64,000 nucleotides of DNA from Kofleriaceae bacterium (GTDB lineage Bacteria; Myxococcota_A; Polyangia; Haliangiales; Haliangiaceae): NCBI GenBank assembly GCA_018057825.1, contig JAGPCY010000023.1, forward strand, positions 1 to 64,000, read 5' to 3'. The notes under the pieces were generated by a model, which saw nothing but the letters and a program-made list of their open reading frames with translations, was not told the origin of the DNA and searched no databases. Made by a program: the position numbers and the translations under genes. Below, piece by piece: positions 22,497-61,500 of the stretch (positions are counted from its first letter, which is position 1; every line of letters begins with the position of its first letter).

Positions 22497-23498
22497 GATC
22501 CCTACTTCTACGCGATGGAGTACGTCGACGGGGCCTCCCTCGCGACGGTGCTCGGTCGGGCCCAGCGGCGGCGGGTGCGGCTGCCCGAGTGGTTCGTGGC
22601 CTCGGTGGCGCTGGCCTGCGCCGAGGGGCTGAGCTACGCCCACGGCATCACCGCGCCCGGGGGCGTGCCGCTGGGGCTGGTCCACGGCGACGTGACGCTC
22701 GCCAACATCATGGTCGCGCGCAACGGCCACGTCGCGCTCCTCGACTTCGGCATCGCGACGACCCGCGTCGGCCTAGGGGTGCGCGAGCGTCGCCACTTGA
22801 TGGGCAAGTTCCAGTACCTGCCGCCCGAGGTGGTGCGCAGCGAGCCGTGGGATCACCGGACCGACGTCTACGAGCTCGGCATGTCGATGCTGGTGGCCCT
22901 GACCGGGGCCATGCCCTTCGAGGCCGCCAACGACGCCCACCTCTTGCACCAGATCGGCGAGGCGCCGCCGCCGTCCTTGCCGGCCCGGCTGCGCACGATC
23001 GCCCCGCCCCTGGCCCAGATCGTCCAGACCGCGGTGGCCTTCGCCCCCGGGGCGCGCTACGCGACGATGGCAGCGCTCGCCGCCGATCTGCGGGCGATGC
23101 TGCGGGCGTCGCCGCTCCATCCCACCGCCGCCGACGTGGCCCGCTTCGTGACCTGGCTGCTCGACGAGGGCAGCGGCGCGGTGGCGATGGCGACCGAGCA
23201 CGCCCCGCCGACCGCCCTCGATCACGCCCCGGCCGAGGACGCCGACGAGCTGCACGAGCTCGAGATCATCGACGACGACCCCAGCCCCGGCCGGGTGGCC
23301 GCGCGCGGCACCCCGGCCTCCCTCGCCATCCCCGAGCCGATCGCGCGCGATCGCGCGGTCGCGGTCGACATCTTCGCCCGCCCGTCGCGCCCGACCCAGC
23401 CATCGGGCGCCAGCGTCTTCGATCGCCGCAGCCTCCGGCCCGCGGCCCCGGAACCCGACGAGCCGCCGCCGCCCCGTCGGTGGCCGTGGGATCGCTGA
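22497..23498 (+). pseudogene. Ser/Thr protein kinase, C-terminal part without N lobe
   Basis: About 330 codons that begin in the middle of a kinase fold. PYFYAMEYVDG is the hinge, VHGDVTLANIM the catalytic loop (HGD in place of HRD), LLDFGIA the DFG motif, LPPEVV the APE equivalent and TDVYELGMSML the F helix. After about residue 220 come acidic and proline-rich low-complexity stretches. The glycine loop and the ATP-binding lysine are missing here but are found on the opposite strand at 23909-24191. An ATG at 22515 could start a short protein, but it could not bind ATP normally. Confidence 0.78.
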
Positions 23499-23569: not shown

Positions 23570-23917
23570 TTGGCCACACTCGCTCAGAACGTCAATCAGC
23601 TCTTGCGCGGCGTCCAGACCAGCGTCCCCGAGGTCATCGGCGCGGTCGTCGTCAACATGGATGGCTTCGTGGTGTCGTCGTCGGTGCCCGCCGAGGTCGA
23701 CGAGGAGTTGATCGGCGGCATGGCCGCGGCCCTGCTCGGCGTCGGCGAGCGCATCTCGGCGGACCTGATGCGCTCGCAGATGGAGCAGGTCTACGTCCGG
23801 TCGCCCAAGGGCTACGTGATCGTGAACGCGATCAACGATCAGTCGGCGCTGGTGCTCCTGGTCACGCGCGAGGCCAAGCTCGGCCTGATCTTCCTCGAGG
23901 TCCGCCGGTGCGGTTGA
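23570..23917 (+). pseudogene. Roadblock/LC7 (MglB-like) gene, 3' end replaced
   Basis: About 113 genuine residues: a first helix ATLAQNVNQLLRGVQTSVPEVIGAVVVNMDGFVV, the GMAAALLGVGERISADL helix, and final strands QSALVLLVTREAKLGLIFLEVRR. Two unrelated residues and a stop follow. The family normally continues with a C-terminal helix of about 8-12 residues; a good candidate for it lies on the other strand at 22470-22496. TTG start with TAGGAG eight bases upstream. Roadblock proteins act as GAPs or scaffolds for MglA-type small GTPases. The shortened product could still fold, so function is not excluded. Confidence 0.72.
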
Positions 23918-24191
23918 CGCAGTCGAGATCGAAGACCGGGACCAGGTTCGGGTGCGACAGCCGAGCCGCCAGCGCGGCCTCTCGGATCAACATCTCGATC
24001 AGCTCGGGGCGCGCCGCCAGGTCGGCCCGCACCAGCTTGAGGACGACCGGCTTGGTGAAGCCGCCGGGGCCTTCGACGGAGGCGCGCCAGACCTCGCCCA
24101 TCCCGCCGACGCCGATGCGCTCCTGCACGACGTACCGGCCGAGGCGCGCCCCGGGCGCCAGCACGACATCGGTCACGTCCTGCGAAGTCAC
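23909..24191 (-). pseudogene. Ser/Thr protein kinase, N lobe only
   Basis: The minus strand encodes a textbook kinase N lobe: RLGRYVVQERIGVGGMGEVWRA (glycine loop), VVLKLV (ATP lysine), the alpha-C helix EMLIREAALAARL, then SHPNLVPVFDLDCVN, after which similarity stops. Translation then continues into the inverted segment as unrelated residues to a stop near 23862. It completes the kinase whose C-terminal part lies at 22497-23498 on the other strand. GTG 24191 is the likely start; a TTG at 24230 is possible. Confidence 0.78.
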
Positions 24192-24411: not shown

Positions 24412-24488
24412 AAGATTGGACTGGCGATCTTCTGCGGAAGGATGCATGTTGGTCGTGTATGCGTCGTAGTCAGTCGTTGGGGGCTGGG

Positions 24489-24611
24489 TTTCTTGGTGAA
24501 GCGACGTCGGGTCCTGCGTCGACCCGGCATGCGTTTCTTGGTGAAGCGACGTCGGGTCCTGCGTCGACCCGGCATGCGTTTCTTGGTGAAGCGACGTCGG
24601 GTCCTGCGTCG
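24489..24611 (+). repeat. 45-bp tandem repeat, about 2.7 copies
   Basis: Copies begin at 24489, 24534 and 24579. Each starts TTTCTTGGTGAAGCGACGTC and the first two are identical over 45 bases. The period is a multiple of three, so every frame gives a 15-residue repeat. Long frames run through on both strands but none has a start, a Shine-Dalgarno and a recognisable product. It lies about 50 bases before the cytochrome gene. Confidence 0.85.
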
Positions 24612-24658
24612 TCGTGGCCTGCGACGTCGGGTGCTGCTGCGTCGTCGCGGGGCGCGCT

Positions 24659-26834: not shown

Positions 26835-29279
26835 CTAGGCGCTCCCCGCACCTGAAGCCAACCAGGCGCGCAGGTGGTCCGGGAACGGCAGCTTCATGGC
26901 GTCGGCCAGCGCGCTCGCTCGCTCCAGGCACGAGCGCGCTTCAACCAGATCGGCAGGTCGACCTCGTCGCACGAGCAGGGTGCCGAGGTTCGCCAGGCCG
27001 ATCATGAGCTCGCGCCCCCCCAGTCGCTCGAAGACCGGCAGATGGTCCTCGCGCAGGATGTGCTGGGCTTCGTCGACGTCGCCCCTTCGCGCCAGGAGGT
27101 TGGCGACCTTTCCCAGCGTGACCGCGCGCGACCGGACGTCCCCCAGCTGCTCGTACACCGGCAGTTCTTCCTCACGCCGGATGCGTAGGGCTTCGTCGAG
27201 GTCGCCCCGGACCGCCAGGATGTCGGCGACCTGCCCCAGCGTGACTGCGCGCTCCCGGACGTCCCCCAGCCGCTCGTACACCGGCAACTGGTCCTCGCGC
27301 CGGATGCGCAGGGCTTCGTCGAGGTCGCCCCGGGCCGCCAGGATGTTGGCGACCTTCCCCAGCGTGACCGCGCGCGACCGGACGTCCCCCAGCCGCTCGA
27401 AGACGGGGAGCAGGTTCTCGCGCAGGATGCGCAGAGCCTTTTCGAGGTCGCCCCGTTCCGTCAGGATGTCGGCGACCCTCCCCAGCGTGACCGCGCGCTC
27501 CCGCACGTCCCCCAGCCGCTCGTACACGGGCAACTGGTCCTCGCGCCGGATGCGCAGGGCTTCGTCGAGGTCGCCCCGGGCCGCGAGGATGTCGGCGACC
27601 TTCCCCAGCGTGACCGCGCGCGACCGGACGTCCGCCAGCCGCTCGAAGACGGGGAGCAGGTCCTCGCGCAGGATGCGCAGGGCTTCGTCGAGGTCGCCGC
27701 GGGCCGCCAGGATGTCGGCGACCTTCCCCAGCGTGACCGCGCGCGCCCGGACGTCCCCCAGGTGCTCGAAGACCGGCAGTTCTTCCTCGCGCCGGATGCG
27801 CAGGGCTTCGTCGAGGTCGCCGCGGGCCGCCAGGATGTCGGCGACCTTCCCCAGCGTGACTGCGCGCGCCCGGACGTCCCCCACGTGCTCGAAGACCGGC
27901 AGTTCTTCCTCGCGCCGGATGCGCAGGGCTTCGTCGAGGTCGCCGCGGGTCGCCAGGATGTCGGCGACATGCCCCAGCGTGACCGCGCGCGCCCGGACGT
28001 CCCCCAGCCGCTCGAAGACCGGCAGTTCTTCCTCGCGCCGGATGCGCAGGGCCTCGTCGAGGTCGCCCCGGTTCGCCAGGAGGTCGGCGATCTTCCCTAG
28101 CGTGACCGCGCGCGACCGGACGTCCCCCAGCCGCTCGAAGACTGGGAGCACGTCCTCGCGCCGGATGCGCAGGGCTTCGTCGAGGTCGCCGCGGGTCGCC
28201 AGGATGTCGGCGACCTTCCCCAGCGTGACCGCGCGCGACCGGACGTCCCCGAGGTGCTCGTAGACCGGCAGTTCTTCCTCGCGCCGGATGCGCAAGGCTT
28301 CGTCGAGGTCGCCCCGGTCCGCCAGGAGGTCGGCGATCTTCCCCAGCGTGACCGCGCGCGACCGGAGGTCGCCCAGCCGCTCGAAGGTCGCCCGCGCCTG
28401 ACCCAACAGCCTCTGCGCGGCGTCCCATTCGCCCCGGGTCACCAAGATCGAGGCCAGCTCGACCCGCGCCTCGGCGACCTCTCCTTCGTTGCCGAGCGCC
28501 TCGGCGCTAGGAATCCACTCATCGCTGATGACGCGCTCGGCGGCCGTGAGCTCGCCGCGCTGCTGTAACGCCCTCGCGAGGCGCCCCAGCAAGCTCAACC
28601 GCGCCCGCGCGGCGTGGGGCCCCTCGGCGCCACCGAGCTCCTCCAGCTCGGCGCGCACCGCCGACGGCTCATCCCCGGCGAGGACCCAGGGGGCGAGCGC
28701 GACCTCAACGCCCTCGACGCCGGGCATCGCCGGCGCCTCGCCGAGCGCGACATCGACGCTTCGCACCGACCACAGATCGGGCGCCAGAAACGGCAAGCTG
28801 CGCGCGAGCGCTGGCCCGAGAAGCAACACCAGCGGGACCGGCGCCGCCGCCGCCACCTGGTTGCGGCGCTCGTTCAGGCGCTGCACGAACCACTCCCAGG
28901 CCGGCAGGTCCACCGTCCGGACGGCGCTGGCGTCGAGGAACCGGACCACGCTTGTGCCGGGTGGCGTGGTCAACACGCCCAGGAGGGCCCCGGCCAGCTC
29001 CGGACCGTCCACCACCGCGCCGTCGGGCCCGAGCTGCACGGCGATGCGCTCGAACGCGGCCCCGCGGTCGCTGCGCCCAGCCTCGACGCTCAACCAGGCC
29101 AGGAGCGCGCGCGCCACCCGCGGCGTCGCGCAGGCCACCAGGTGCAGCTCGAAGCCCTCCCCCAGAGCCAGCGCGTCGCGCAGGCGCATGGCGCCCGGCT
29201 GCGACGGCAGCGCCAGCATGAGGCCATCGAGCGCCGGCTCGGCGCTGGGGCTCACCGGTTCGCGCGCGATCGCGATCAC
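26835..29279 (-). CDS. Repeat-rich TPR protein, partner of the P-loop ATPase
   Basis: An 814-residue protein. Residues 1 to about 210 form an unrecognised alpha/beta domain (ELHLVACATPRVARALLAWLS, VPLVLLLGPALARSLPFLAP). Residues about 220-300 are ordinary TPR helices. Residues about 295-735 are eleven 40-residue repeats with consensus LGDVRSRAVTLGKVADIL / ARGDLDEALRIRREEELPV, then a final TPR and a short tail. Repeats differ at few positions, mostly charged ones. The start codon overlaps the stop of the P-loop ATPase gene by four bases, so the two are made together. The layout (ATPase with separate repeat protein) recalls split STAND-type sensor systems; this is an inference. Confidence 0.8.
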   Translation of the reverse strand: MIAIAREPVSPSAEPALDGLMLALPSQPGAMRLRDALALGEGFELHLVACATPRVARALLAWLSVEAGRSDRGAAFERIAVQLGPDGAVVDGPELAGALLGVLTTPPGTSVVRFLDASAVRTVDLPAWEWFVQRLNERRNQVAAAAPVPLVLLLGPALARSLPFLAPDLWSVRSVDVALGEAPAMPGVEGVEVALAPWVLAGDEPSAVRAELEELGGAEGPHAARARLSLLGRLARALQQRGELTAAERVISDEWIPSAEALGNEGEVAEARVELASILVTRGEWDAAQRLLGQARATFERLGDLRSRAVTLGKIADLLADRGDLDEALRIRREEELPVYEHLGDVRSRAVTLGKVADILATRGDLDEALRIRREDVLPVFERLGDVRSRAVTLGKIADLLANRGDLDEALRIRREEELPVFERLGDVRARAVTLGHVADILATRGDLDEALRIRREEELPVFEHVGDVRARAVTLGKVADILAARGDLDEALRIRREEELPVFEHLGDVRARAVTLGKVADILAARGDLDEALRILREDLLPVFERLADVRSRAVTLGKVADILAARGDLDEALRIRREDQLPVYERLGDVRERAVTLGRVADILTERGDLEKALRILRENLLPVFERLGDVRSRAVTLGKVANILAARGDLDEALRIRREDQLPVYERLGDVRERAVTLGQVADILAVRGDLDEALRIRREEELPVYEQLGDVRSRAVTLGKVANLLARRGDVDEAQHILREDHLPVFERLGGRELMIGLANLGTLLVRRGRPADLVEARSCLERASALADAMKLPFPDHLRAWLASGAGSA
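27100..28400 (-). repeat. Eleven 120-bp in-gene repeats
   Basis: Near-identical 120-bp units follow each other without a gap inside the TPR gene. Anchors such as CAGCGTGACCGCGCGC recur exactly every 120 bases. The low divergence at synonymous positions points to recent expansion or ongoing gene conversion between units. Confidence 0.93.
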
Positions 29280-30613
29280 GGCGCGCTGATCGCGCCACGC
29301 TTGAGCTGCTGGATCGCCGCGGCGACGCCGGGGATCTCCTTGACGGCGGGATGTAGATCGAACCAGTCGCGGTCGTTCAGATACCGGAGGATGGCGTTAT
29401 TCGACAGCATGGCGTCGGCGATCTTGCGGTGCTCGTCATCGTCGAGGGTCAGCTCTTGCTCGACGGCGACCCGGGCCAGCCACAGGTAGGCGGTGGCCGG
29501 GATCATCCGGCGGTACTGATCGCCGACCTCGTTGAGCACCCGCGCGAAGGCGCTGCCCGACAGCGGCAAGGCCTCCGCGCCGAGCGCCGACTGCAGGAGC
29601 CTCACCAGCTCCCGCGGGTAGCCGCCGGACCACTCGATGAGCTGCTTCATGCGCGGCTCGAGCCCATCGCCGAACACCTCGCGGAGCGCGTCGACCGGCA
29701 CCCGCTTGAGCACGATGTCGTAAGCGGCCTCGACGCCCGGCTCGAACGGCGTGCCGTCGCGATGCGCCAGCTTGATCATCGGCATGAAGTGGACCTGCTC
29801 GAAGCGTCGGCGGGCGATGAGCGCGGTCGGGATCGTGTAGAAGGCGTGGACCGGCAGGCGCAGGTAGGGCGCCCCACTGGCGAACACCTGCTCGGCGCTC
29901 TGGAGCACCAGCTCCCAGTTGGTGCTGACCCCGCGGAGCTTCTCGAGGGAGTCGAAGATCACCACCAGCCCGGCCCGCCCTGCGCGCTCGGCCCGCGCCT
30001 GCATCAAGAGCAGCTCGTCGCGGGCTTCTTCGAGGAACCGCGACAGATGGGCGCCGACAGCGGCGCGCACCTGGGCGCGCAGCGACGGACGGGTCTTCAG
30101 CTCAAGCACCAGCCGCGCCGGGTCGGCGACGGTCAGGTGGGCCTGGGTCAGGGTCACGTCGGTCTTGGTGATCCAGTTCCAGAACCGGGTCAGGTAGCCC
30201 TCGCGCATGCTGTCGCCGGTCGGCTTGCCCTCCGTGGCCAGGAGCGCCGCGTCGGTCGCGGACAGGATCGCGAAGATGATGTCGGGGATGTCGATCGGGT
30301 TGGCGAGATCCAGGCTCTCCTCCGCGTCGATCACCACCGGCAGGAGGTTGGCGCCGTCCGGGCGGGCGAGCTGAGCGGCCAGGCGCCGCAGCTCCGTCGA
30401 CTTGCCCGAGCCCGGCAACCCGGTGACCAGCTCGCACACCGGTTCGTTCGAGAGTTCCACCCGCCGCGCCAGCTTGCCGACCCAGTTCTCGCCTCGGACG
30501 CGGTGGTCCGCATCGCCCCGCTCATCGACCTCGACGTAGCGCGGGTCATCGGGCATGAGCGCCTCCATCGGCTTGCACCGGTTGTAGAGGTACCTTCGGC
30601 GCTCGAGATCCAT
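29276..30613 (-). CDS. P-loop ATPase of the ATPase-TPR pair
   Basis: A 445-residue ATPase. After the N-terminal block YLYNRCKPMEALMPDDPRYV comes Walker A GLPGSGKST (about residue 65), then a long central insertion, and Walker B AGLVVIFDSLEKLRG (about 225), then RFEQVHFMPMIKL and WSGGYPRELVRLLQ, the last resembling the arginine and winged-helix segment of STAND/ORC-type ATPases. The C terminus is helical. The ATG at 30613 has no Shine-Dalgarno, but TATGCT lies nine bases upstream. A defence or signalling role is possible but not shown. Confidence 0.78.
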   Translation of the reverse strand: MDLERRRYLYNRCKPMEALMPDDPRYVEVDERGDADHRVRGENWVGKLARRVELSNEPVCELVTGLPGSGKSTELRRLAAQLARPDGANLLPVVIDAEESLDLANPIDIPDIIFAILSATDAALLATEGKPTGDSMREGYLTRFWNWITKTDVTLTQAHLTVADPARLVLELKTRPSLRAQVRAAVGAHLSRFLEEARDELLLMQARAERAGRAGLVVIFDSLEKLRGVSTNWELVLQSAEQVFASGAPYLRLPVHAFYTIPTALIARRRFEQVHFMPMIKLAHRDGTPFEPGVEAAYDIVLKRVPVDALREVFGDGLEPRMKQLIEWSGGYPRELVRLLQSALGAEALPLSGSAFARVLNEVGDQYRRMIPATAYLWLARVAVEQELTLDDDEHRKIADAMLSNNAILRYLNDRDWFDLHPAVKEIPGVAAAIQQLKRGAISAP

Positions 30614-30742: not shown

Positions 30743-30980
30743 CTCGACAAGGTCGAGGTGATCATCGCCGCCAACCCCGAGGCGTGGGCCCACTGCCACA
30801 CCGAGTACCGCCGCCTCCGCGAGTCCTGGACCGTGGTTCCGTTCAAGGAGATCCGTTGGCTCGCGGCGCGGCCACCCATACGATCGTGAGCTACGACCAC
30901 GTCATCATCGACCCCGAGCGCGTCGTCACGTACGACATCGCCCACGTCCCCATCGACAGCGGCCAGCTCGACCTCGCGGC
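30743..30980 (+). pseudogene. Relic of an Rrp8-like methyltransferase domain
   Basis: Two short reading frames. The first (to the stop at 30887) reads NPEAWAHCHTEYRRLRESW followed by VVPFKEIRWLAARP. The second, in another frame from about 30892, reads YDHVIIDPERVVTYDIAHVP and then SGQLDLA. From memory these match the start and middle of an Rrp8-like methyltransferase domain that is attached to some helicase proteins. The SAM-binding glycine motif between them is deleted, and the frame decays after 30980. A dead remnant of a larger mobile or defence-type gene is the best reading. Confidence 0.5.
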
Positions 30981-31059
30981 GGGCTCCCGACGTCGTCTCG
31001 CTCTTCGGTGGGGCGGGGGGCGTGAGCGCACGCGTTCTCACGCGTGCCGCGGCGAGCAG

Positions 31060-31356
31060 CTACTCGATGTTCACGACGTACTCAGTGGTCTTGGCTGTCT
31101 TGATGCGCACCTTGGCGTATCCAACCATCGTAAAATTGCGCTTGTTCTTGAATCTCCCACTGCCGGTTCGAATCCCAACGGCGTTGTAGACTCTGTAGTC
31201 CGCGTAGGCATCTGTTCCGGCCAGGTTGATCGTAATCGTTCTATACAGGCCGACGAAGGTCTCGGCGGTTGTCCATGTGCCAGCTCTAGCGATGGGCATT
31301 CTCAGATCCTTCATCGAAGGTGTGCGCCAGAGGTCGCCCGTTCGTGGCTCCTGCAC
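31060..31356 (-). CDS. Small hypothetical protein, low GC
   Basis: A 98-residue ORF whose codon and base use are clearly poorer in GC than all surrounding genes. The product is beta-rich and basic (GLYRTITINLAGTDAYADYRVYNAVGIRTGSGRFKNKRNF). No family is recognised and there is no signal peptide. Possible starts are GTG 31356, ATG 31314 and ATG 31299; none has a good Shine-Dalgarno. It is probably acquired DNA. It may be a fragment. Confidence 0.4.
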   Translation of the reverse strand: MQEPRTGDLWRTPSMKDLRMPIARAGTWTTAETFVGLYRTITINLAGTDAYADYRVYNAVGIRTGSGRFKNKRNFTMVGYAKVRIKTAKTTEYVVNIE

Positions 31357-31439
31357 GGGGAGGCCTGAGCATCGACCGACTGAGGCTATCCTCAGGATCG
31401 GGCGGCGACAATCATCCGAAATGGGTGGCCATCTTTCGT

Positions 31440-32412
31440 TGGAATGCGTCCATGCGTCCGGGGGAGGGGCAGCCCGAGGTCACCCCACCACCGCGCTGAA
31501 GCCGACAGCAGTTGAACGCCGGCGCTCACGCACCACCACTGCCGGTGACACCGACGGCGGCGCTCACGCGATCCGGACGTTACGGAGGCGGGGGCCCAGC
31601 GACGTTTGCACGCCCCAGCCCCGCAGATCGCACGCGCTACTCTCCCGAAAGGCTGGCGGGACCACCGCCGGACGCTACAGGGGGGGCCCATCGACCCCTG
31701 GGGCGAGGGTCTGCCAGAGGTCACCCCACCACTGCGCTGAAGCAGACAGCGGCTGAACGCCGGGGCTCACGCACCACCACCGCCGGTCACACCGACGGCG
31801 GCGCTCCCGCGATCCGGACGTTGCGGGAGGGGGGCCTAGCGACCTTCACACGCTCCCCCTCTGCGCCAGATCGCACGCGCAACCTCACGCGCCTCGCGCA
31901 CGGCACCAGTCCCCGCGCCAGGTCGGAACGTTTTGGGAGGGGGCCCCAGCGACCCCTGGGGCGAGGGTCTGCCCGAGGTCACCCCACCACTGCGCTCTAG
32001 CAGACAGCGGCTGAACGCCGGGGCTCACGCACCACCACCGCCGGTGACACCGACGGCGGCGCTCCCGCGATCCGGACGTTACGGGAGGGGGGCCCCAGCG
32101 ACCTTCGCACGCTCCGGCTCCGCGCGGTCACCGCACACCGCGCTGAAGCAGACAGCGGCTGAACGCCGGGGCTCACGCACCACCACCTCGCGCGCCGCGG
32201 GTACGGCACCAGTCCCCGCGTCAGGTCGGAACGTTTTGGGAGGGGGCCCCAGCGACCCCTGGGGCGAGGGTCTGCCCGAGGTCTCCCCACCACTGCGCTG
32301 AAGCAGACAGCGGCTGAACGTCGGCGCTCACGCACCACCACCGCCGGTGACACCGACGGCGGCGCTCCCGCGATCCGGACGTTACGGGAGGGGGGCCCCA
32401 GCGAATGCTGGG
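31440..32412. repeat. Dispersed hairpin repeat, cluster 1 (five copies)
   Basis: Five copies of a unit of about 150-260 bases, anchored by GCGCTGAAGCAGACAGCGGC at about 31494, 31731, 31988, 32139 and 32292. Each continues with CTCACGCACCACCAC, an imperfect hairpin around GCCGGTGACACCGACGGC, then GCGATCCGGACGTTACGGGA and a G-rich/C-rich hairpin. Some copies are truncated. ORFs through the region are composition artefacts. No transposase or terminal repeats are seen. Three related copies lie at 38326-38826. Confidence 0.88.
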
Positions 32413-32439
32413 GGGAGGGTTTTTGCGAAAAACCCTCCC
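32413..32439. terminator. Perfect 12-bp hairpin behind ssb
   Basis: GGGAGGGTTTTT and AAAAACCCTCCC flank the loop GCG. It lies three bases beyond the stop codon of ssb (minus strand) and forms the last part of the dispersed repeat. There is no T tract after the stem, but the stem itself ends in five A/U pairs. It should work in both directions. Confidence 0.75.
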
Positions 32440-32442
32440 AGA

Positions 32443-32907
32443 TCAAAACGGAATATCGTCGTCGGGGCTGCCGCCGCCGCCGCCGCCGAAGCCGCCGCCG
32501 CCACCGCCGAAGTCGGGCTCGGGCGGGGGCGGGCCGTCGTCCGCGCCGCGCCGTCCGCCGCCGCCGCCATCGCGGCCGCTCGAAAGGAACTGCACGTCGT
32601 TGGCGATGACCTCGGTGATGTACCGCTTCTGGCCTTCCTTGTCGTCGTAGGAGCGGGTCTGGATCCGGCCCTCGATGTAGACCTGGCGGCCCTTGGCGAG
32701 GTACTTGGCACAGATCTCGGCGGTCTTGCCCCAGACCACGACCCGGTGCCACTCGGTGCGCTCCTGGCGCTGGCCGTTCTTGTCCTTCCAGCTCTCGCTG
32801 GTGGCGACCCGCAGCTCGCACACGCCAGCGCCGCTGGGGGTGTAGCGCATGTCGGGGTCAGCGCCGAGGTGTCCGATGAGGATGACTTTGTTGACTCCGC
32901 CAGCCAT
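32443..32907 (-). CDS. ssb: Single-stranded DNA-binding protein
   Basis: A 154-residue SSB. The OB fold starts [21 protein letters not shown] and includes [38 protein letters not shown] Gly-rich linker leads to the acidic tip DDDIPF that recruits partner proteins. It coats single-stranded DNA in replication, repair and recombination. AAGGAG lies seven bases before the ATG. Monocistronic; divergent from the glycosyltransferase gene. Confidence 0.97.
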
Positions 32908-32951
32908 GGGTCAGCTCCTTGGCCCAGGCTGTAGCACGGTCGTATGACACC

Positions 32952-32980
32952 TTGAGCGGACCCCGATCGGGCGCTACAAC
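32952..32980 (+). promoter_or_regulatory. Promoter TTGAGC-N17-TACAAC
   Basis: -35 TTGAGC (32952-32957) and -10 TACAAC (32975-32980) are 17 bases apart. The ATG of the glycosyltransferase follows eight bases after the -10, so the transcript would be leaderless or nearly so. Confidence 0.55.
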
Positions 32981-32988
32981 CCCCCGCG

Positions 32989-33876
32989 ATGTACCAGCAC
33001 TTGCGCGTCGCGGTCGCCATCCCGGCCTACAACGAGGAGCGCGCGATCGCCGACGTCGTGGCCGGGATCCCGGCCTGGGTCGATGACGTCCTGGTGGTCG
33101 ACGACGCCTCGAGCGACGGCACCGTCGCCACCGCCCGGGCCGCCGCCGCCGCGCGGCCCGGCGCCGAGGTCCTGGTCCACGACGTCAACCGCGGGGTCGG
33201 GGCGGCCATCGTGACCGGCTACCGACGGGCGCTGGCCCTCGGCGCCGACGTGGTCGCGGTCATGGCGGGCGACGGCCAGATGGATCCCGCCGATCTGCCG
33301 GCGATCCTCGAGCCGATCGCGGCCGGCCTGGCCGACTACGTCAAGGGCAACCGGTTCGCGCACCCCGAGGTGTGGACCGCGATGCCGCCGGCGCGCATCG
33401 TCGGCAACCTGGTCCTGTCGGCGGCGACCAAGCTGACCTCGGGCTACACCCACGTCTTCGATTCGCAGTGCGGCTACACCGCGGCGTCGGCGGCGGCCTT
33501 GCGCGCGATCGACCTCGATCGGGTCTTCCCGCGCTACGGCTACCCCAACGACCTGCTGTCGCATCTGCACGTCGCGGGCATGCGGGTGCGCGACGTCCCG
33601 GTCAAGCCGGTCTACGGGCCGGCCTGGAAGAGCGGGATCTCGATCGGCACGGCGCTCCATCCGATCCCGTGGGTGCTCCTGCGGTCGTGGGGCAACCGGG
33701 TCACCACGGAGACCCGCGCCCGCTGGCGAGACCGAGTCCGAGTCCGAGACCGAGACCGAGACCGAGGCCGAGGCCGAGACCGAGTCCGAGACCGAGACCG
33801 AGACCGAGACCGAGGCGGAGACGGAGTCCGAGACCGAGGCCGAGACCGAGTCCGAGACCGAGTCCGAGGCCGCTAG
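32989..33876 (+). CDS. Family 2 glycosyltransferase with repeat-encoded tail
   Basis: A 295-residue GT-A type glycosyltransferase. The start AIPAYNEERAI, the nucleotide-binding VVDDASSDGT, the metal-binding DGQMDP and the PRYGYPNDLLSHLHVAG helix are as in polyprenyl-phosphate or surface-polysaccharide GT2 enzymes. The domain ends near residue 246 (NRVTTETRARW). The remaining about 48 residues are a run of Arg-Asp, Arg-Gly and Arg-Val dipeptides read from a hexamer array. It is likely a soluble enzyme on the cytoplasmic face. Its TAG overlaps the TAG of the convergent VOC gene. Confidence 0.86.
   Translation: MYQHLRVAVAIPAYNEERAIADVVAGIPAWVDDVLVVDDASSDGTVATARAAAAARPGAEVLVHDVNRGVGAAIVTGYRRALALGADVVAVMAGDGQMDPADLPAILEPIAAGLADYVKGNRFAHPEVWTAMPPARIVGNLVLSAATKLTSGYTHVFDSQCGYTAASAAALRAIDLDRVFPRYGYPNDLLSHLHVAGMRVRDVPVKPVYGPAWKSGISIGTALHPIPWVLLRSWGNRVTTETRARWRDRVRVRDRDRDRGRGRDRVRDRDRDRDRGGDGVRDRGRDRVRDRVRGR
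33728..33870. repeat. Hexamer array 4, inside the glycosyltransferase 3' end
   Basis: About 140 bases of GAGACC, GAGTCC and GAGGCC hexamers. Unlike the other arrays it is within an open reading frame and encodes the charged tail of the glycosyltransferase. It stops a few bases before the shared stop codons. Confidence 0.95.
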
Positions 33877-44151: not shown

Positions 44152-47100
44152 ATGATCGATCGCACTCTCACCACCATCGTCGCCGTCACCGCGCTCGCCC
44201 TGTGCGGGGTCTTCGGCGAGGCCGCGGCCGGGCCTGACAACCAGATCGGCGCGGTGGCGATCGACGATGATCGCGGCACGACCACGATCCGCCTGCGCGG
44301 CTCGGACACGCCGACCTTCACCGTCTACAAGCTCGAGCGACCGACGCGGGTCGTGGTCGACCTGGCGTCGGCGGCCTTGACCGACGCGGTCCGCGGCGAC
44401 GACGCCGCGGTGACCTTCCCGGTCGGCTCGTGGGCGGTCGGCCAGGTCGCCGCGATGTCGCTCGAGGATGGCAGCGCCGGCGTCCGGGTGGTCGCGACCC
44501 TGGCGCGGCCCGGGCGCTACGACGTCCGCGCCGACGGCAAGGACGTGATCATCACGGTGACCGCGCGCGATCCCGCGCCGACCACCGCCAGCCCGGCCGC
44601 GCTGGCCGCCGCCCACGCCGCGGCCGCGGCGGCCAAGACCGACGCCGAGCGGGCGCGGGCCGAGGCCGCGCGCACGACCGCCGCCGCCAACGCCGCGACC
44701 GCGGCGGCCAAGACCGACGCCGAGCGGGCGCGGGCCGAGGCCGCGCGGACGACCGCCGCCGCCAACGCCGCGACCGCCGCGGCCAAGACCGACGCCGAGC
44801 GGGCGCGGGCCGAGGCCGCGCGCATGACCGCCGCCGCCAACGCCGCGACCGCCGCCGCCGCGGCCGCGAAGCGCGACGCCGAGGCCGCCAAGCGCGAGGC
44901 CGCCGCCGCCAAGGTCGCGGCCGACGCCGAGGCCCGCCGCGCCGCCGCCGCCGCGACCGCCGCCGCCGCCGCCCAGCGCGCCCGCCTCGACGCCGGCGCC
45001 GCCGATCGCGCGGCCGCCGACCGCCAGCTCGCCGCTGCTCAGGCCGCCGCGACCGCCGCCGCCGCCGCCGCCGATCGCGCGGCCGCCGAGGCGGTGCGGA
45101 CCCAGCTCGCGGCCCAGGCCACCCAGGACGCGGCCGCCGCCGAGCTGGCCCGCGCCAAGCGCCTCACCGACGACGCGACCCGCGAGGCCGCGCGGATCCG
45201 CGAGCAGGCCGCGGTCGCCGCCGCCCGCACGCGCGAGGACGCCGCCCGCGAGCTGGCCGCCGCCCAGGTCGCCATCGAGCGCGATCGCAAGGCCGCCGAG
45301 GCGGCCCGCGCCGAGGCCGACCGCGTGCTGGCGTCGGCCCGCGCCGAGCAGCAGCGCGTCGCCGCGGTGACCCGCGAGGCCGCCGAGCGCGCCGCCGCCG
45401 CCACCGACACCCAGCGCGCCGCCGAGGCGCGTCAGGCCAAGGCGGTCGCCGCCGCCGCCGCCGCCGCCCAGGATCGCGCCGCCGCCGAGGCGGCCCTGGC
45501 CACCGCGACCGCGCAGCGCGAGGCCGCGGCCTCGGCGCGTGGCGACGCGACCCAGGCCCGCGCCGCGGCGGAGGCCGCGGTGCGCGCCGCCAACCAGCGG
45601 CTGGCCAAGGCCGACGCCGCGCGGCAGTCCGCCGAGGAGGCCCGCCGCGCCAGCGAGGCCGCCTTGGCCGCCGCGCGATCCGAGCTGGCCGGCGCGCGCG
45701 CCGCCCAGGGCGACGCCGCCGCCGCGCGCCTGGCGGCCGAGGCTGGGGCCAAGCGCGCCCTCGAGGAGCGGGCCGCGGCCGAGGCCGCGCGGGCCCGCGC
45801 CAGCCAGCGCGCCGAGGAGCTGATCGCCGCGGCCGAGCGAGCCGAGGTCCGCCGCCGCGACGCCGAGCAGGCGGCCCAGGTCGCGACCGCCGCCGCCGCC
45901 GCCGCCGAGGCCCAGCGGACCGACGCCCAGCGCGCCGCCGCCGCCGCCCGCGTCGCCCGGGCCGCCGACGAGCGGGCCGCGGCCGAGGCCAAGGCCGCCG
46001 CCGCCAAGTCCATGGCCGACGCCCAGGTCGCCCGGGCCGCCGAGGAGCGGGCCGCGGCCGAGGCCGAGGCCGCCGCCGCCAAGTCCGTCGCCGACGCCCA
46101 GGTCGCTCGGGCCGCCGACGAGCGGGCCGCGGCCGAGGCCAAGGCCGCCGCCGCCAAGGCGCAGGCTGACGCCCGCGCCGCCCGCGCCGCCGAGGAGCGG
46201 GCGATCGCCGAGGCCCAGCGGCTCGCGGCCAAGACCGTGGCCGACGCCCGCGCCGCCCGCGCCGCCGAGGAGCGCGCCGCGGCCGAGGCCAAGGCCCTCG
46301 CCGCCCAGACCATCGCCGCCGCCCGCGCCGCCCGCGAGGCCGAGGAGCAGGCCGCGCAGCGCCGGGTCGCCGATCTCGACGCTGCGGCGGACGCCGCCGC
46401 CGCCCGCACCCGGGTCGAGGAGCAGAAGGCCGCCGCCGCGGCGAAGGCCCGCGCCGACGAGGAGAAGGCCGCGGCCGCCGCGGCCAAGACCCGCACCGAT
46501 GAGGAGAAGGCCGCGGCCGCTGCGGCCAAGACCCGCGCCGACGAGGAGAAGGCCGCGGCCGCTGCGGCCAAGACCCGCGCCGACGAGGAGAAGGCCGCAG
46601 CAGCCGCCGCCAAGACCCGCGCCGACGAGGAGAAGGCCGCGGCCGCCGCGGCGAAGACCCGCGTCGACGAGGAGAAGGCCGCGGCCGCCGCCGCCAAGGC
46701 GCGGGCGGTCGCCGAGGCCCAGCGCGCCGAGGCCGAGCAGGCCGCCGCCGCCCTCGCGACCTCGCTGGCCGCCCACCAGCGCGCCGTCGATGCCGCTCGG
46801 CGCCAGGCCGCGGCCGCCGAGGCCGCGCGCGCCACCGCCGATGCGCAGCGCCACGCCAGCGCCGCCGACAAGGCCAAGGCCGCCGCCGCCGTCGAGGCCG
46901 CGACCAAGGCCGCGGCCGCCGCCGAGGCCGAGCTGGCGACCCGCACCGCCGACGTCACCGCCCGCCGGCGCGAGGTCGAGCGCCTCGACGCCGCCAAGGC
47001 CGAGGCCACCACCGAGCTGGCCCGCCACCAGGCCGCCGCCGTCGCCGCGCGCCAGGCCCGCGCCGCCGAGGAGCAGCGCCTCGCCGACGCCCGCGCGGCC

Positions 47101-49017
47101 CGCGCCGCCGAGGAGCAGGCCCTGGCCAAGCTCCGCGCAGCCACCGCCGCCGCCAAGGTCGCGGCCGCCGCGCCGCCGCCGGTCGCTGCCACCCCGGCGG
47201 CGCCGCCGGTGACCGTCGCCGCCCGGCCGGCCACGTCGGCGCCGACGGCCAAGCCCACGCCCAGCGCCAAGCCGGCGCCGACGGCCAAGCCCACGCCCGC
47301 CGCGCCCACCACCCAGATCACCGGCGTGACCTTCGCCCGCGACGCCGACGGCCAGGTCGTGACGATCGCCCTCGACGGCGACGGGGCCACCGCCGAGCTG
47401 GTCCGCGCCGACGGCCGCACCGCCGAGCTGGTCGTGCGCGGCGCCGCGCTGCCGGCGCGCTTGACCAAGACCCTCGACACCTCGCGCTTCGGCGGCCCGG
47501 TCCGCACGGTCTCGAGCTACACCGATCGCGCCACCGGCGAGGTCCGGGTCGCGGTCAGCCTGGCCGCCGACGCCATCCCGCGCCTCGACACCCGGTCCGG
47601 CGCGGTCGAGCTGCGCTTCGCCAACGCCGCGGTCACCGCCCGGCGGCTGCCCAGCCCGGTGGTCGGCGGCTTCGGCGCCACCTCGGCGCCGGTGACCCAG
47701 ACCTCGGTCGCGCAGCTCGGCAAGCGCCGGGTGTTCCGCGGGCCGACCATCGACCTCGACTTCAAGGACGCCGACATCCACGACCTGCTGCGGGCCCTGG
47801 CCCGGGTCGGCAACGTCAACATCGTCGTGCCCGACGAGATCAACGCCTCGGTCACGGTCCAGCTCAAGCGGGTGCCGTGGGACCAGGCCCTCGAGGTCAT
47901 CCTCGCCGCCAAGGGCCTGTGGTACCGCAAGGACGGCAACATGTACCGCATCGGCGACCGCAAGGTCCTCGACGCGGAGGACGAGGCCGAGGCCGCGCGC
48001 CGCAAGGCCATGATCGAGCTCGAGGCCCCCAAGCCCGAGGTCTTCACGCTCAACTACGCCGACGCCGCGTCGCTGGCGACCAAGATGGCGCCGCTCCTGT
48101 CGCCCAAGGGCAAGGTCGAGGTCGACGAGCGCACCAACTCGCTCATCATCAACGACGTCGGCGCCAACCGCCGCGAGATCGTCGACCTGGCGGCCCGCCT
48201 CGACACCCAGACGCCGCAGATCTCGATCGAGGCCCGCATCGTCGAGGCCCGCAGCGGGTTCCGCCGCGAGTTCGGCATCCAGTGGGGCGGTCGCGCCGGG
48301 GTCGGCGCCGAGTCGGGCAACGCCACCGGCCTGATCTTCCCGTCGTCGATCGGCTTCGTCGGCGGCGCCGACGATCCGACCAACAAGCCGGGCACCGGCC
48401 TGCCGACGCCGTCGGACTTCGCGGTCAACCTGCCGGCTGGCGGCACCAACGGCGTGCTCGGCATGACCCTGGGCTCGGTCGGCGGCGCGGTCAACCTCAA
48501 CCTGCGCCTGAGCGCCCTCGAGGAGAGCGGCACCGCGCGCATCATCTCGGCGCCCAAGGTCACCGTGCTGAACAACGTCCAGGCGACGATGAAGCAGGGC
48601 ATCAAGATCCCGATCTCCCAGGTCTCGGCCCAGGGCACCCAGACCACCTTCGTCGAGGCCAACCTCGAGCTCAACGTCACGCCCTACGTGTCGCAGCGCG
48701 ACTGCTCAGTGGTGATGGACATCAACGTCGCCAAGGCCGAGCCCGACTTCTCGCGCCTCGGCGCCCGCGGCGATCCGACGATCCAGAACCGCGAGGCCCG
48801 GACTCGCATGCTGGTCGCCGACGGCGAGACCTCGGTGATGGGTGGCATCTACACCCGGTCGACCGCGCTCAACTACTCGAAGGTGCCGATCCTCGGCGAC
48901 ATCCCGGTGTTCGGCTGGCTGTTCAAGAGCCGCCGCGAGACCGACGACCGCGCCGAGCTCCTGATCTTCATCACGCCCAAGATCACCAACCGCGCGCTCC
49001 TGCGCTGCCAGGGCTAG
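44152..49017 (+). CDS. pilQ: Giant type IV pilus secretin PilQ
   Basis: A 1,621-residue outer-membrane secretin, about twice the usual length. Signal peptide (about 1-25); first AMIN domain (about 30-142); then about 855 residues (148-1003) of Ala/Glu/Arg/Lys-rich heptad-like sequence with many repeats (ADEEKAAAAAAKTR and AARAAEERAAAEAKA units), predicted to be a long coiled coil or single helix; a Pro linker (1005-1055); second AMIN domain (1056-1165); STN/N0 domain (about 1197-1270); N1 domain (about 1295-1370); and the secretin barrel ending ELLIFITPKITN. It forms the pilus pore and binds peptidoglycan through AMIN. The long insert is highly unusual. Confidence 0.93.
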   Translation: MIDRTLTTIVAVTALALCGVFGEAAAGPDNQIGAVAIDDDRGTTTIRLRGSDTPTFTVYKLERPTRVVVDLASAALTDAVRGDDAAVTFPVGSWAVGQVAAMSLEDGSAGVRVVATLARPGRYDVRADGKDVIITVTARDPAPTTASPAALAAAHAAAAAAKTDAERARAEAARTTAAANAATAAAKTDAERARAEAARTTAAANAATAAAKTDAERARAEAARMTAAANAATAAAAAAKRDAEAAKREAAAAKVAADAEARRAAAAATAAAAAQRARLDAGAADRAAADRQLAAAQAAATAAAAAADRAAAEAVRTQLAAQATQDAAAAELARAKRLTDDATREAARIREQAAVAAARTREDAARELAAAQVAIERDRKAAEAARAEADRVLASARAEQQRVAAVTREAAERAAAATDTQRAAEARQAKAVAAAAAAAQDRAAAEAALATATAQREAAASARGDATQARAAAEAAVRAANQRLAKADAARQSAEEARRASEAALAAARSELAGARAAQGDAAAARLAAEAGAKRALEERAAAEAARARASQRAEELIAAAERAEVRRRDAEQAAQVATAAAAAAEAQRTDAQRAAAAARVARAADERAAAEAKAAAAKSMADAQVARAAEERAAAEAEAAAAKSVADAQVARAADERAAAEAKAAAAKAQADARAARAAEERAIAEAQRLAAKTVADARAARAAEERAAAEAKALAAQTIAAARAAREAEEQAAQRRVADLDAAADAAAARTRVEEQKAAAAAKARADEEKAAAAAAKTRTDEEKAAAAAAKTRADEEKAAAAAAKTRADEEKAAAAAAKTRADEEKAAAAAAKTRVDEEKAAAAAAKARAVAEAQRAEAEQAAAALATSLAAHQRAVDAARRQAAAAEAARATADAQRHASAADKAKAAAAVEAATKAAAAAEAELATRTADVTARRREVERLDAAKAEATTELARHQAAAVAARQARAAEEQRLADARAARAAEEQALAKLRAATAAAKVAAAAPPPVAATPAAPPVTVAARPATSAPTAKPTPSAKPAPTAKPTPAAPTTQITGVTFARDADGQVVTIALDGDGATAELVRADGRTAELVVRGAALPARLTKTLDTSRFGGPVRTVSSYTDRATGEVRVAVSLAADAIPRLDTRSGAVELRFANAAVTARRLPSPVVGGFGATSAPVTQTSVAQLGKRRVFRGPTIDLDFKDADIHDLLRALARVGNVNIVVPDEINASVTVQLKRVPWDQALEVILAAKGLWYRKDGNMYRIGDRKVLDAEDEAEAARRKAMIELEAPKPEVFTLNYADAASLATKMAPLLSPKGKVEVDERTNSLIINDVGANRREIVDLAARLDTQTPQISIEARIVEARSGFRREFGIQWGGRAGVGAESGNATGLIFPSSIGFVGGADDPTNKPGTGLPTPSDFAVNLPAGGTNGVLGMTLGSVGGAVNLNLRLSALEESGTARIISAPKVTVLNNVQATMKQGIKIPISQVSAQGTQTTFVEANLELNVTPYVSQRDCSVVMDINVAKAEPDFSRLGARGDPTIQNREARTRMLVADGETSVMGGIYTRSTALNYSKVPILGDIPVFGWLFKSRRETDDRAELLIFITPKITNRALLRCQG

Positions 49018-58542: not shown

Positions 58543-61500
58543 GTGATTGACACCCCGCGCGCGGTGGCGACAAGGTCAATACCCATGGAGGGGGAGCCAG
58601 CACCTGACCTGCCGCCGCGCTTCGAGGACGCGCGCGAGCTCGGCTCGGGGGGCATGGGCATCGTCTACCGGGCCGTCGATCGCGAGCTCGGGCGTCCGGT
58701 GGCGGTCAAGGTCTTCCACGATCGGACCCCGCTCACCTTCGATCGCGTCAAGCGCGAGTTTCGCCTGGCGGCCGCGGTGCGCCATCCCAACCTGGTCCGC
58801 CTGGGCGAGCTCTTCGAGCACGCCGGCTCGCTGTGCTTCTCGATGGAGCTGATCGAGGGCGTCGATCTGGCGAGCTGGGTGATGGCCGGCGCCCGCGCCG
58901 ATCGGGTCCGGTTGGCGCTGGTCCAGCTCGCCGGTGCGCTGGCGGCGCTCCACCGCGCCGGCGTGATCCACCGCGACGTCAAGCCGGCCAACGTCATGGT
59001 CACCACTGACGACCGGGTGGTCCTGCTCGACCTCGGCCTGGCGATCCCGATCGGCGGCGGCGAACGCGAGCTGGCCGGCACGGTCGAGTACGTCGCCCCC
59101 GAGCAGCTCGTCGGCGGTGCGCCGACCGCCGCGGTCGATCTCTACGCGCTCGGCGTGCTCGGCTTCGAGCTGCTGACCGGCCGGACCCCGTTCGAGGGGG
59201 CGCCGCTCGAGCTCCTGGTCGCCAAGACCGAGCGCGACGCGCCGGTGGTGTCGACGCTCGTCCGCGGCGTGCCGCTCGATCTCGATCGGCTGATCCGATC
59301 GTTGCTAGAGCGCGACCCGTCGGCTCGGCCGACCGCGCGCGAGCTCGAGCTGTCGCTGGGCGAGGCCACGGCGCCGGCGCCGCGCCGCCGTCGCCAGACC
59401 GGCCGGCTGCGTCGGGAGCTGATCGGCCGCGCCGCCGAGCTGGCGGAGCTCCTGGCGGCCAGCGAGAGCGTGGCCCGCCGCCCGCGCACGGTGCTGTACC
59501 TGGTGCGCGGCCCGACCGGGATCGGCAAGACCGCGCTGGTCGAGACCCTGGCCGACGCCGCCCGGGCCCGCGGGCAGCTCGTCGCGCTCGGTCGCTGTGG
59601 CCCACGCGAGCACCTGCGCTACAACGCCTGGGACGCGCTGATCGACGCCTTGGCCCGCTACCTCGAGGGCGTGGCGCCGGCCGAGCGCGCTGCGCTGGTG
59701 CCGGCCAGCGCGGTCGCGCTGTCGCGCATGTTCCCGTCCTTCGAGCGCGTGGTCGACGTGACCAGCACCAGCTCGGACGCCGTCGAGCTGATCGAGGCCG
59801 AGGCGGTCGACGCGATCCGCGCGATCGTCAGCGGCATCGCCCGGACCCGCGCCGTGGTGTCGATCCTCGACGACGCCCAGTGGACGACCGCGGCCAGCTT
59901 CGCGCTCCTGATCGAGACCCTGCGGGCGCCAGCGCCGCCGTGCCTGATCGTGTTCTGTGTCCGCACCACGGCCCAGGTCCCGCCGGCGATGGCGGCGCAG
60001 ATCGACCGCCTGCGCGGACTCCCGATCGAGCTGCGTGTGCTCGATCTGGCGCCGCTGCCCGACGACGACATCGGCGCGCTCGCGATGCGCTGGTCGGGCG
60101 ACCCGGCGGCGGCCCGACGGATCGTCGGCGCCGCCCACGGCAACCCGCTGTACGCCGAGCTCCTGGCCGGCGAGCCCGACTCCGACGACGACGATCTCGG
60201 CGCGCTGTTTCGCCGCCGCCTGACCTCGCTGCCGGCCGGCCCGGCCCAGGTCCTGCGCGCGGTGGTCGCCGCCGGCGTCGCGGTCCGCCTCGGTCTCCTC
60301 GGCCACGCGCTGGCGATGGGCCACGACACGCTCATCCTCGCGGTCGAGCACCTGCAGGAGCGCGGGCTGGTGCGCAGCTCGGGCCTGACCCGGGTCGACA
60401 CCTGCGAGGTCATGCACGATCAGGTCGTGGCCGCGACCGAGGCCCACTGGCCGGCGCGCGCCGACGACCACCGTCGCCTGGCGCTGGCGATCGAGGAGGT
60501 CGAGCCCGAGCGCGCGGCGCTGGCGGTGCGCCACTGGGTGCTGGCCGGCGAGCGCGAGCGCGCCACCACCGCGGTCCTCGAGCTGGTCGCGGGCGCCCGC
60601 GACGTCCTGGCGATGGCCCAGGCGGCGGAGCTGTGCGCGCTGGTCCTGACCATCGCGCCCGACGAGCCGCGCCTCTTGCGTCGCCGCGCCGACGCCCTGG
60701 CCCTGGCCGGCGATGGCGATCGCGCGGCCGACGCGTACCTCGCGGCCAGCCAGGTGTCGAGCGGGGCCGAGCGCCTCGACCTCGAGCGCCTGGCCGCCGA
60801 GCACCTCTTGCGCGGCGGTCGCATCGACGACGGCACCCGGGTGGCGCGCCGGGTCGCGGCCGGCCTCGGCGGCGATCTCGATCTGTCCCACGCCAGCGTC
60901 ATGTCGCGCCTCACGATCGAGCGCGTGCGCAACCGCTGGCGCGGCCTGACCTTGGCGCGCGAGCCGGCGCCGGGCGAGGCCGCGCTGGCCGACGCCTGTG
61001 CGTCCTTGGCCGCCGGCCTGTCGATGATCGACACGATCCGCGCCGCCTGGTTCACCAGCCGCGGGGTCCGCCACGCCCTCGACAGCGGCGACCCGGTGCG
61101 GGCGGCGCGGGCGCTGTGTTACGACGCGATGATCTCGGCGACCCGCGGCGCCAAGCAGGACCGCCGGGTCCGCGACACCCTGGCCCAGGCCCGCGCGTTC
61201 CTCGCGCGCGCGGCGCGGCCCGAGGTCGGCGCGCTGATCGAACACGCGGCGGCGGTGACCGCGATGCTGGCCGGCGACTACCGCGCGGCTCGCCACCACG
61301 GCGAGCTCGCGGTCGCGTCGTATCGGCGGGTCGCGGCCGGCGTGTCCTTCGATCAGCACACCGCCGAGTTCTTCACCGTGGTCGCGCTGTTCTGGCTCGG
61401 CGACTGGGCGACCCTGGTCGAGCGCCGGCGCGGCCTGTTGCGCGCCGCCGACGCGACCGATGATCGCTTCGCCCGGCTGTGCGCCACCACCGGGGTCGCG

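Follow-up and report, generated by a model that had tools for sequence, protein, structure and literature searches.

Can a receptor of the STAND/NLR kind be divided between two proteins, with the nucleotide switch on one chain and the sensor on another? The question is raised by two adjoining genes on the minus strand of a Kofleriaceae bacterium, which a first-pass annotation had read as a P-loop ATPase and a repeat protein, possibly a split STAND-type system. They lie in the stretch of 64,000 nucleotides (nt) analyzed here (contig JAGPCY010000023.1, positions 1-64,000; "the window"). Both open reading frames (ORFs) were found where the annotation had placed them, and the pair of ATPase gene and partner gene is real. 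The two genes share the letters GTGA, not ATGA as had been thought, with TGA as the stop codon and GTG as the start codon. The 4-nt overlap between the ATPase and the next gene is exactly kept in 17 of 30 relatives from our first survey, a count that rests on called gene starts and is given for that survey only because partner starts in the later survey were set mechanically (longest ORF).

We found that the N-terminal domain of the partner (the N-domain) accompanies the ATPase across genomes while the domains behind it are exchanged. We propose, with slightly better than even confidence, that the pair is a two-gene NLR-like signaling module used in conflict, which may involve an arginine finger acting in trans.

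Recurrence of the gene pair

A scan of named genomes gave 79 loci, of which 69 were used to count pairing; the other 10 duplicated training-set loci and were left out (L140 was kept, although its contig equals that of L044 in size). With a profile built from 24 first-survey partners and excluding the window, the gene directly downstream of the ATPase was found to encode an N-domain at 67 of these 69 other loci, and the profile had no other match among their 4581 ORFs. The same profile recovers the window partner (Table 1). As anatomy, the split STAND of the first-pass annotation is therefore well supported, by a lone ATPase with this constant neighbor; it needs amending in that the partner also has a predicted Walker-less AAA+ domain of its own.

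Across 12 whole genomes, the ATPase stands directly upstream of 32 of the 36 N-domain matches. One unpaired N-domain belongs to a 2303-residue Sorangium ORF (L163:3400-10308), where it is followed by WD40 repeats; no ATPase of the family occurs within the 14 kb around it. The N-domain is thus hardly ever found without the ATPase, and ATPase relatives do occur without the N-domain. The ATPase and N-domain distance matrices are correlated (rho = 0.67, 56 loci), and none of 2000 permutations reached as high a value.

The family is broadly but thinly spread. The 79 loci include isolates of Enhygromyxa, Nannocystis, Sorangium, Polyangium, Myxococcus, Archangium, Roseomonas and Geitlerinema, as well as bins labeled Zoogloea, Planctomycetota, Acidobacteriota and others, and 8 plasmid records carry the ATPase family. 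Of 282 genomes sampled from the phylum, at least 25 have the ATPase (a lower bound, at most 6 candidates per genome being scored). An initial scan of genomes that used just the window ATPase as the query gave no match. Within the window's family the ATPase occurs in 1 of 30 sampled genomes, the window's own. Because the other 29 lack it, the pair is accessory in this family. Members at L089, L095, L125 and L140 lie in bins whose titles name Klebsiella pneumoniae or Bifidobacterium breve, where they seem out of place, which suggests that these are mislabeled metagenome bins.

Exchange of the domains behind the N-domain

The partners of 65 of the 79 loci were compared (set A6). TPR_12 is matched by 44 of them. 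Elsewhere the N-domain is followed by TIR-NB-ARC-TPR (L050), CHAT-AAA-TPR (L054), calcineurin-like phosphoesterase (metallophosphoesterase)-NACHT (L055 and L058), EAD5 (L047), SIR2-NACHT-FGE (L130) or nSTAND1-WD40 (L134), and a protein kinase occurs in 1 of the 65 (PD-T4-6/mad6 matches; placed in L079 by motif). Several partners hold a complete second STAND/NLR. In the partner on the Acaryochloris plasmid pREC1, whose gene overlaps that of the ATPase, an N-domain is followed by repeats, a STAND-like P-loop and WD40 propellers (N-domain and P-loop identified by eye). On a Calothrix plasmid (L065:7342-9435), an ATPase of the family is itself fused to TIR. The protein that follows this fusion appears by eye to have two tandem N-domain-like segments. 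Neither GT4 nor HEPN was found in the partners among the family matches listed (in one table, 25 of 159 families).

Bacterial conflict systems typically contain effector and receptor parts like those found behind the N-domain; PMC7159879 describes both EADs and iSTAND systems (here and below, PMC numbers stand for the parts of each paper drawn on here).

Predicted fold of the ATPase

Pfam gives a sub-threshold match to AAA_16 alone. In an alignment of 53 ATPases (A5; the window ATPase and those of 52 of the 79 loci), the Walker sequence noted by the first-pass annotation is invariant at its key positions (Table 1), and the second segment that it singled out, WSGGYPRELVRLL, is present at residues 328-340. 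The SGGYPR motif within it we take, by analogy, to be sensor-2-like, and WFDLHP resembles the HPL/MHD-type motif of STAND proteins and may be equivalent to MHD.

An AlphaFold2 model built from the 53 ATPases is of high confidence (mean predicted local distance difference test [pLDDT] 93.5; predicted template modeling score 0.92). Its secondary structure and fold matches indicate an AAA+ core, a helical lid and a C-terminal winged helix. Foldseek places ORC/Cdc6 and CED-4 at the top. The VIA-align comparisons, in which values within Z 1 of each other count as tied, gave TnsC (Z 14.7, root-mean-square deviation [rmsd] 3.8, 287 residues), an archaeal Walker-type ATPase (Z 14.6, rmsd 4.5, 285 residues), ORC (Z 13.9, rmsd 3.3, 237 residues), the NRC4 resistosome (Z 13.8, rmsd 6.0, 293 residues) and CED-4 (Z 13.4, rmsd 5.9, 285 residues). 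The CED-4, NRC4 and ORC matches span most of the chain, so that a nucleotide-binding domain, a helical domain and a winged helix are predicted on one polypeptide. The chain stops after the winged helix with no fused sensor or effector, the repeats being on the adjoining gene. We conclude that the ATPase is predicted to be a free-standing module made up of an ORC/STAND/TnsC-type core, a lid and a winged helix.

Family-level matches are weaker. The ATPase-family profile matches RADAR RdrA (8fnu) over residues 60-222 (E = 3.3e-5). The family matches of the window ATPase and its relatives include weak ones to nSTAND_NTPase5 or nSTAND3 and none to an nSTAND2 model. Among PADLOC models, mad8 matches the window ATPase over the P-loop stretch only (E = 0.003) and is matched by 17 of the 53 ATPases (best E = 1.9e-7); the window partner matches TPR models and one model at chance level.

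The partner N-domain and a candidate arginine finger

The first-pass annotation had called the partner's N terminus unrecognized, and Pfam indeed matches nothing in its first 235 residues. A model of the N-domain (250 residues; pLDDT 84, core above 90) has TRIP13 as its best Foldseek match (E = 2.7e-4) and aligns in VIA-align with Hsp104 NBD1 (Z 11.7, rmsd 3.7, 164 residues) and with the Avs5 filament (Z 10.2, rmsd 3.2, 128 residues). The domain is thus predicted to be an AAA+/STAND alpha/beta core without Walker motifs. In the window model the core is followed by helices (residues 188-240, pLDDT 58-73) that run into the TPR region. Searches of the N-domain sequence against solved structures were uninformative (best E = 0.007, a designed ATPase). 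As a sequence claim, descent of the N-domain from a duplicate of the ATPase was rejected (hhalign probability 3-5%).

The N-domain alignment (A4) contains 62 rows, from 73 loci, that fit a pattern with N136, R139 and D168. No row region corresponds to a Walker A: there is no G-x4-GK, and no position within residues 43-59 has a lysine in more than 5 of 62 rows. Because Walker A is absent, the N-domain itself probably cannot bind ATP. A Walker-B-like D116 is found in 27 of 62 rows.

Since the rows were picked by that pattern, R173 alone has a conservation that is independent of row selection. In one of the rows dropped from the alignment, L092, a lysine stands by eye at the place of R173. The model puts R173 between the helix that follows the fourth core strand (residues 156-170) and a strand (residues 176-179), and AAA+ proteins carry an arginine finger between the helix after the fourth core strand and the next strand. 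The ends of the VIA alignments place R173 near Hsp104 334, ClpA 340, Thermus thermophilus ClpB 323 and p97 363, by arithmetic on alignment ranges that assumes no gap in the last ten residues; we take these positions to lie at or beside the arginine fingers of those proteins. In the ATPase, no arginine of the corresponding stretch is conserved, the best being R268 (27 of 53). It is possible, though on balance doubtful, that the partner supplies an arginine finger in trans.

The TPR array of the partner

The superhelical repeat region proposed for the partner is borne out by Pfam, in which TPR_12 matches 11 stretches (E = 5.7e-38). Eleven nearly identical TPR units begin at an exact spacing of 41 residues and vary mostly at unit positions 11, 14, 15, 21, 27, 34 and 41. 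The 123-bp repeat array is far beyond chance. Over 45 unit pairs the mean nonsynonymous divergence (dN) is 0.10 and the mean synonymous divergence (dS) 0.19. Because dN is lower than dS, the array appears to be under constraint; it also appears to have been amplified recently. Positive selection on the array was considered and finds no support in these values.

Table 1. Coordinates of the gene pair and its conserved elements in the window.
Feature	Position	Strand	Basis
ATPase gene, 445 aa	29276..30613	-	ORF; AAA_16 E 3e-5; AlphaFold2 model; fold matches
Walker A GLPGSGKST, residues 65-73	30395..30421	-	G65, G68, G70, K71 and T73 in 53/53 aligned relatives
Walker B region LVVIFDSLE, residues 216-224	29942..29968	-	D221 53/53; E224 47/53, D in the other 6
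SGGYPR, start of lid helix, residues 329-334	29612..29629	-	G331 53/53; R334 51/53
WFDLHP in winged helix, residues 417-422	29348..29365	-	W417 and P422 53/53; H421 48/53
GTGA stop/start overlap of the two genes	29276..29279	-	Sequence
Partner gene, 814 aa, predicted Walker-less AAA+ N-domain and TPR sensor	26835..29279	-	ORF; Pfam
N-domain, predicted Walker-less AAA+/iSTAND-like core, residues 24-184	28728..29210	-	Profile without window, E 8.9e-29; model; AAA+ matches
LNERRN motif, residues 135-140	28860..28877	-	N136 and R139 62/62, both within the row-selection pattern
APDLWSVRS motif, residues 166-174, with R173 as candidate trans arginine finger	28758..28784	-	R173 60/62
Array of ~11 TPR units, 41 aa/123 bp	27017..28386	-	Tandem Repeats Finder, 11.1 copies, 88% matches; unit alignment

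A proposed split NLR-like module and its alternatives

We suggest the following mechanism for the pair. The ATPase would be a minimal nucleotide-binding and oligomerization module with neither effector nor sensor, and the partner would contribute the sensor (in the window, the TPR repeats) by way of its AAA+-fold N-domain, which lacks Walker A and would act as a socket. The N-domain would pack on the ATPase like a neighboring AAA+ subunit and set R173 at the nucleotide site of the ATPase as an arginine finger. A ligand on the TPR superhelix could then open the complex and lead to a hetero-oligomer of ATPase and partner. In other genomes, a second NLR or domains of the TIR, SIR2, CHAT, phosphoesterase or kinase type would be gathered by this assembly; for the TPR-only version of the window, the output would have to come from a protein encoded elsewhere, or the scaffold itself would be the output. 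From the company of the N-domain we infer that signaling of the conflict or immunity type is the most likely biological role.

More tentatively, with confidence that falls somewhat short of even, we conjecture that the pair represents a widespread split-NLR platform, in which a free-standing STAND-like ATPase would be switched exclusively in combination with an AAA+ adaptor that lacks Walker motifs and gives it an arginine finger in trans. Across Myxococcota, Cyanobacteria, Acidobacteriota, Pseudomonadota and other phyla, this adaptor would be the universal connector for no fewer than eight types of sensor or effector (TPR, nSTAND1-WD40, TIR-NB-ARC, CHAT, phosphoesterase-NACHT, SIR2-NACHT, EAD5 and kinase). 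STAND/NLR receptors are normally single-chain. A natural two-chain form would let switch, sensor and effector be studied and swapped separately. It would also test whether NLR-like machines can borrow the catalytic arginine of an inactive AAA+ subunit, and many TPR and WD40 proteins of bacteria that are now annotated merely as repeat proteins would gain a functional context.

Several observations weigh against a conflict module with a finger in trans. The window copy has no recognizable effector, only TPR in Pfam, and because of this and of the 44 partners with TPR_12, most versions do not reveal their output. In the 12 whole genomes, 15 of 47 ATPase matches have no N-domain match. Among six of these loci that were examined (L159, L160, L161, L162, L166 and L167), L161 has a weak N-domain next door to the ATPase, and in L159 (2347-4416, Archangium) the ATPase runs in frame into an SMC/AAA_15-like ATPase segment up to the contig end; in the remaining four (L160, L162, L166 and L167) no N-domain is detected at E 0.01, so ATPase relatives can work with something else. 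ATPase R304 is invariant (53 of 53) and could be a finger of its own, and profile-profile comparison finds no kinship between N-domain and ATPase beyond the fold (the probability of 3-5% given above). The window neighbors are ordinary genes (multiheme cytochrome-like, ssb, glycosyltransferase and glyoxalase), with no sign of the defence or accessory island that the first-pass annotation had envisaged. That annotation had also asked whether the pair recurs in defence islands; the pair does recur, and around the 69 loci, whose gene families were assigned by eye, no enrichment of defence genes was shown, nor was there a recurrent third gene, except for generic regulator families and for the synteny that three Sorangium genomes have in common. 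Finally, a tblastn search of the ATPase against 50,697 phage records gave no match, and of 482 stretches in IMG/VR that matched a pattern none was confirmed. Because no relatives were found in phages or viral contigs, domain company is the only link to phages.

These points leave a regulatory role as the main rival. The pair could be a split STAND regulator of ordinary signaling, a nonimmune, MalT-like switch in which TPR sensing governs gene regulation, motility or development. An effector-free copy among ordinary chromosomal genes and the prevalence of TPR proteins among the partners agree with such a role, as does the neighborhood shared by three Sorangium loci near a tsf-like gene (by eye), which suggests vertical maintenance. 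MalT and PH0952 are examples of STANDs whose sensor is of the TPR type (PMC6468293). Against a regulator of this kind stand the patchy distribution of the ATPase (one family genome of 30), the many copies per genome (an Enhygromyxa genome has 14 ATPase and 9 N-domain matches) and the presence of the N-domain in front of TIR, SIR2, CHAT, phosphoesterase-NACHT and EAD5 proteins; moreover, Pfam recognizes no DNA-binding output domain in the window partner. We regard it as unlikely, although it deserves to be kept in mind.

A further possibility is that the pair is the nSTAND2 two-gene operon of Kaur et al. 2021, composed of an active STAND and an eroded STAND with variable effectors. The form agrees, in that a mobile two-gene operon with an active and an inactive NTPase and variable C termini has been described (PMC8195603). 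The usual effectors there are GT4 and HEPN, which are missing from the partners among the matches listed, and both cores are STAND modules with a conserved arginine finger (PMC8195603). The N-domain family shows no clear lid, and for the ATPases no nSTAND2 model came up, their matches to nSTAND_NTPase5 or nSTAND3 being weak. Identity with that operon is accordingly improbable.

We consider it highly improbable that the ATPase is of the TnsC/TniB or KAP/RdrA type and that its partner serves a DNA-acting system as a targeting or regulatory subunit: TnsC has the top structural Z, tied with others, and the family profile matches RdrA, but no recurrent transposase, TniQ, nuclease or deaminase neighbor was recognized by eye in the 69 loci, where the constant neighbor is the N-domain protein. 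Equally remote is a decaying, functionless remnant kept by chance beside a broken gene, since the broken ORF directly upstream and the break in synteny with sister genomes beside ssb are set against two full-length ORFs without stops, intact ATPase motifs and R173, and repeat units whose dN and dS point to constraint. A two-gene NLR-like module thus remains the reading that we favor.

Surroundings of the pair in the window

Directly upstream of the ATPase lies a broken plus-strand ORF (~30749-31041) in two readable frames. It is reminiscent by eye of a methyltransferase, as the first-pass annotation had put it; the break is there, and the methyltransferase label is not confirmed because Pfam matches neither piece. 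A low-GC ORF had been noted alongside, and positions 31001-32000 are indeed 66.5% GC against ~70-77% around them; the ORF at 31060-31356 matches no family above threshold.

Five genomes of the same genus share only the ssb-glycosyltransferase stretch at this place (window ~32380-33746). In one of them, G281, the sequence adjoining that stretch matches window positions 58609-62082. A clean empty site for the pair was sought in these five genomes and rejected; none can be drawn because the area is rearranged. No match to the flanking cytochrome-like gene occurs in the 6 other genomes of the genus.

Between the pair and ssb, at 31882-32404, are about three imperfect copies of a tandem repeat of 148-155 bp. 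Farther away, a 45-bp unit is repeated 2.8 times with 100% identity at 24488-24637, near kinase-like pieces at 22515-23498 and 23862-24191 (by eye), and GC reaches up to 85% at 45001-46000, inside a 1621-residue ORF (44152-49017) of a pilus-like cluster (by eye).

Comparison with known systems

No published description of the ATPase/N-domain pair was recognized in full-text literature searches, which is weak evidence of absence as subscription papers are mostly uncovered. The closest published concepts are the nSTAND2 two-gene operon and the iSTAND domains.

The nSTAND2 system is a mobile two-gene operon of an active STAND and an eroded NTPase partner, mostly with GT4 or HEPN effectors, for which a hetero-multimer with an arginine finger was proposed (PMC8195603). 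Our pair is similar in having adjoining genes, an active ATPase beside a partner with eroded nucleotide-binding motifs, and variable C-terminal modules. It differs in that the modules are TPR, WD40, TIR, SIR2, CHAT, phosphoesterase and kinase, a distinction made by description only, and in that the N-domain seems to be just the alpha/beta core. Both nSTAND2 proteins have the arginine finger. In our pair, R173 of the partner is found in 60 of 62 rows, and the ATPase has an arginine in 27 of 53 rows at the equivalent place, along with R304 in all 53.

iSTAND domains, which lose the Walker motifs and the helical bundle (PMC12839542), occur in BREX (BrxB, PglW) and in MoxR-vWA ternary systems (PMC12839542, PMC7159879). 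Like them, the N-domain is a predicted Walker-less AAA+/STAND core that would serve as a sensory or regulatory part beside an active ATPase or effector. Unlike them, it has near-invariant residues instead of minimal sequence conservation, and its constant neighbor is a lone STAND-like ATPase, no recurrent component of MoxR-vWA or BREX type being recognized by eye near the 69 loci.

RADAR shares with the pair the profile similarity of its KAP-type ATPase RdrA over the P-loop domain (E = 3.3e-5), but no recurrent RdrB deaminase neighbor was recognized and the partner of our ATPase is a different protein. TnsC and ORC/Cdc6 are, along with CED-4 and plant NLRs, the closest predicted folds of the ATPase, although no transposition or replication genes recur beside the pair.

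With the single-chain STAND and NLR proteins (MalT, PH0952, bacterial NACHT proteins and Avs), the pair has in common the predicted core-lid-winged-helix fold of its ATPase and a superhelical repeat sensor. In contrast to all of these, its ATPase and its repeats are on separate chains, which would be joined by the Walker-less AAA+ domain of the repeat protein.

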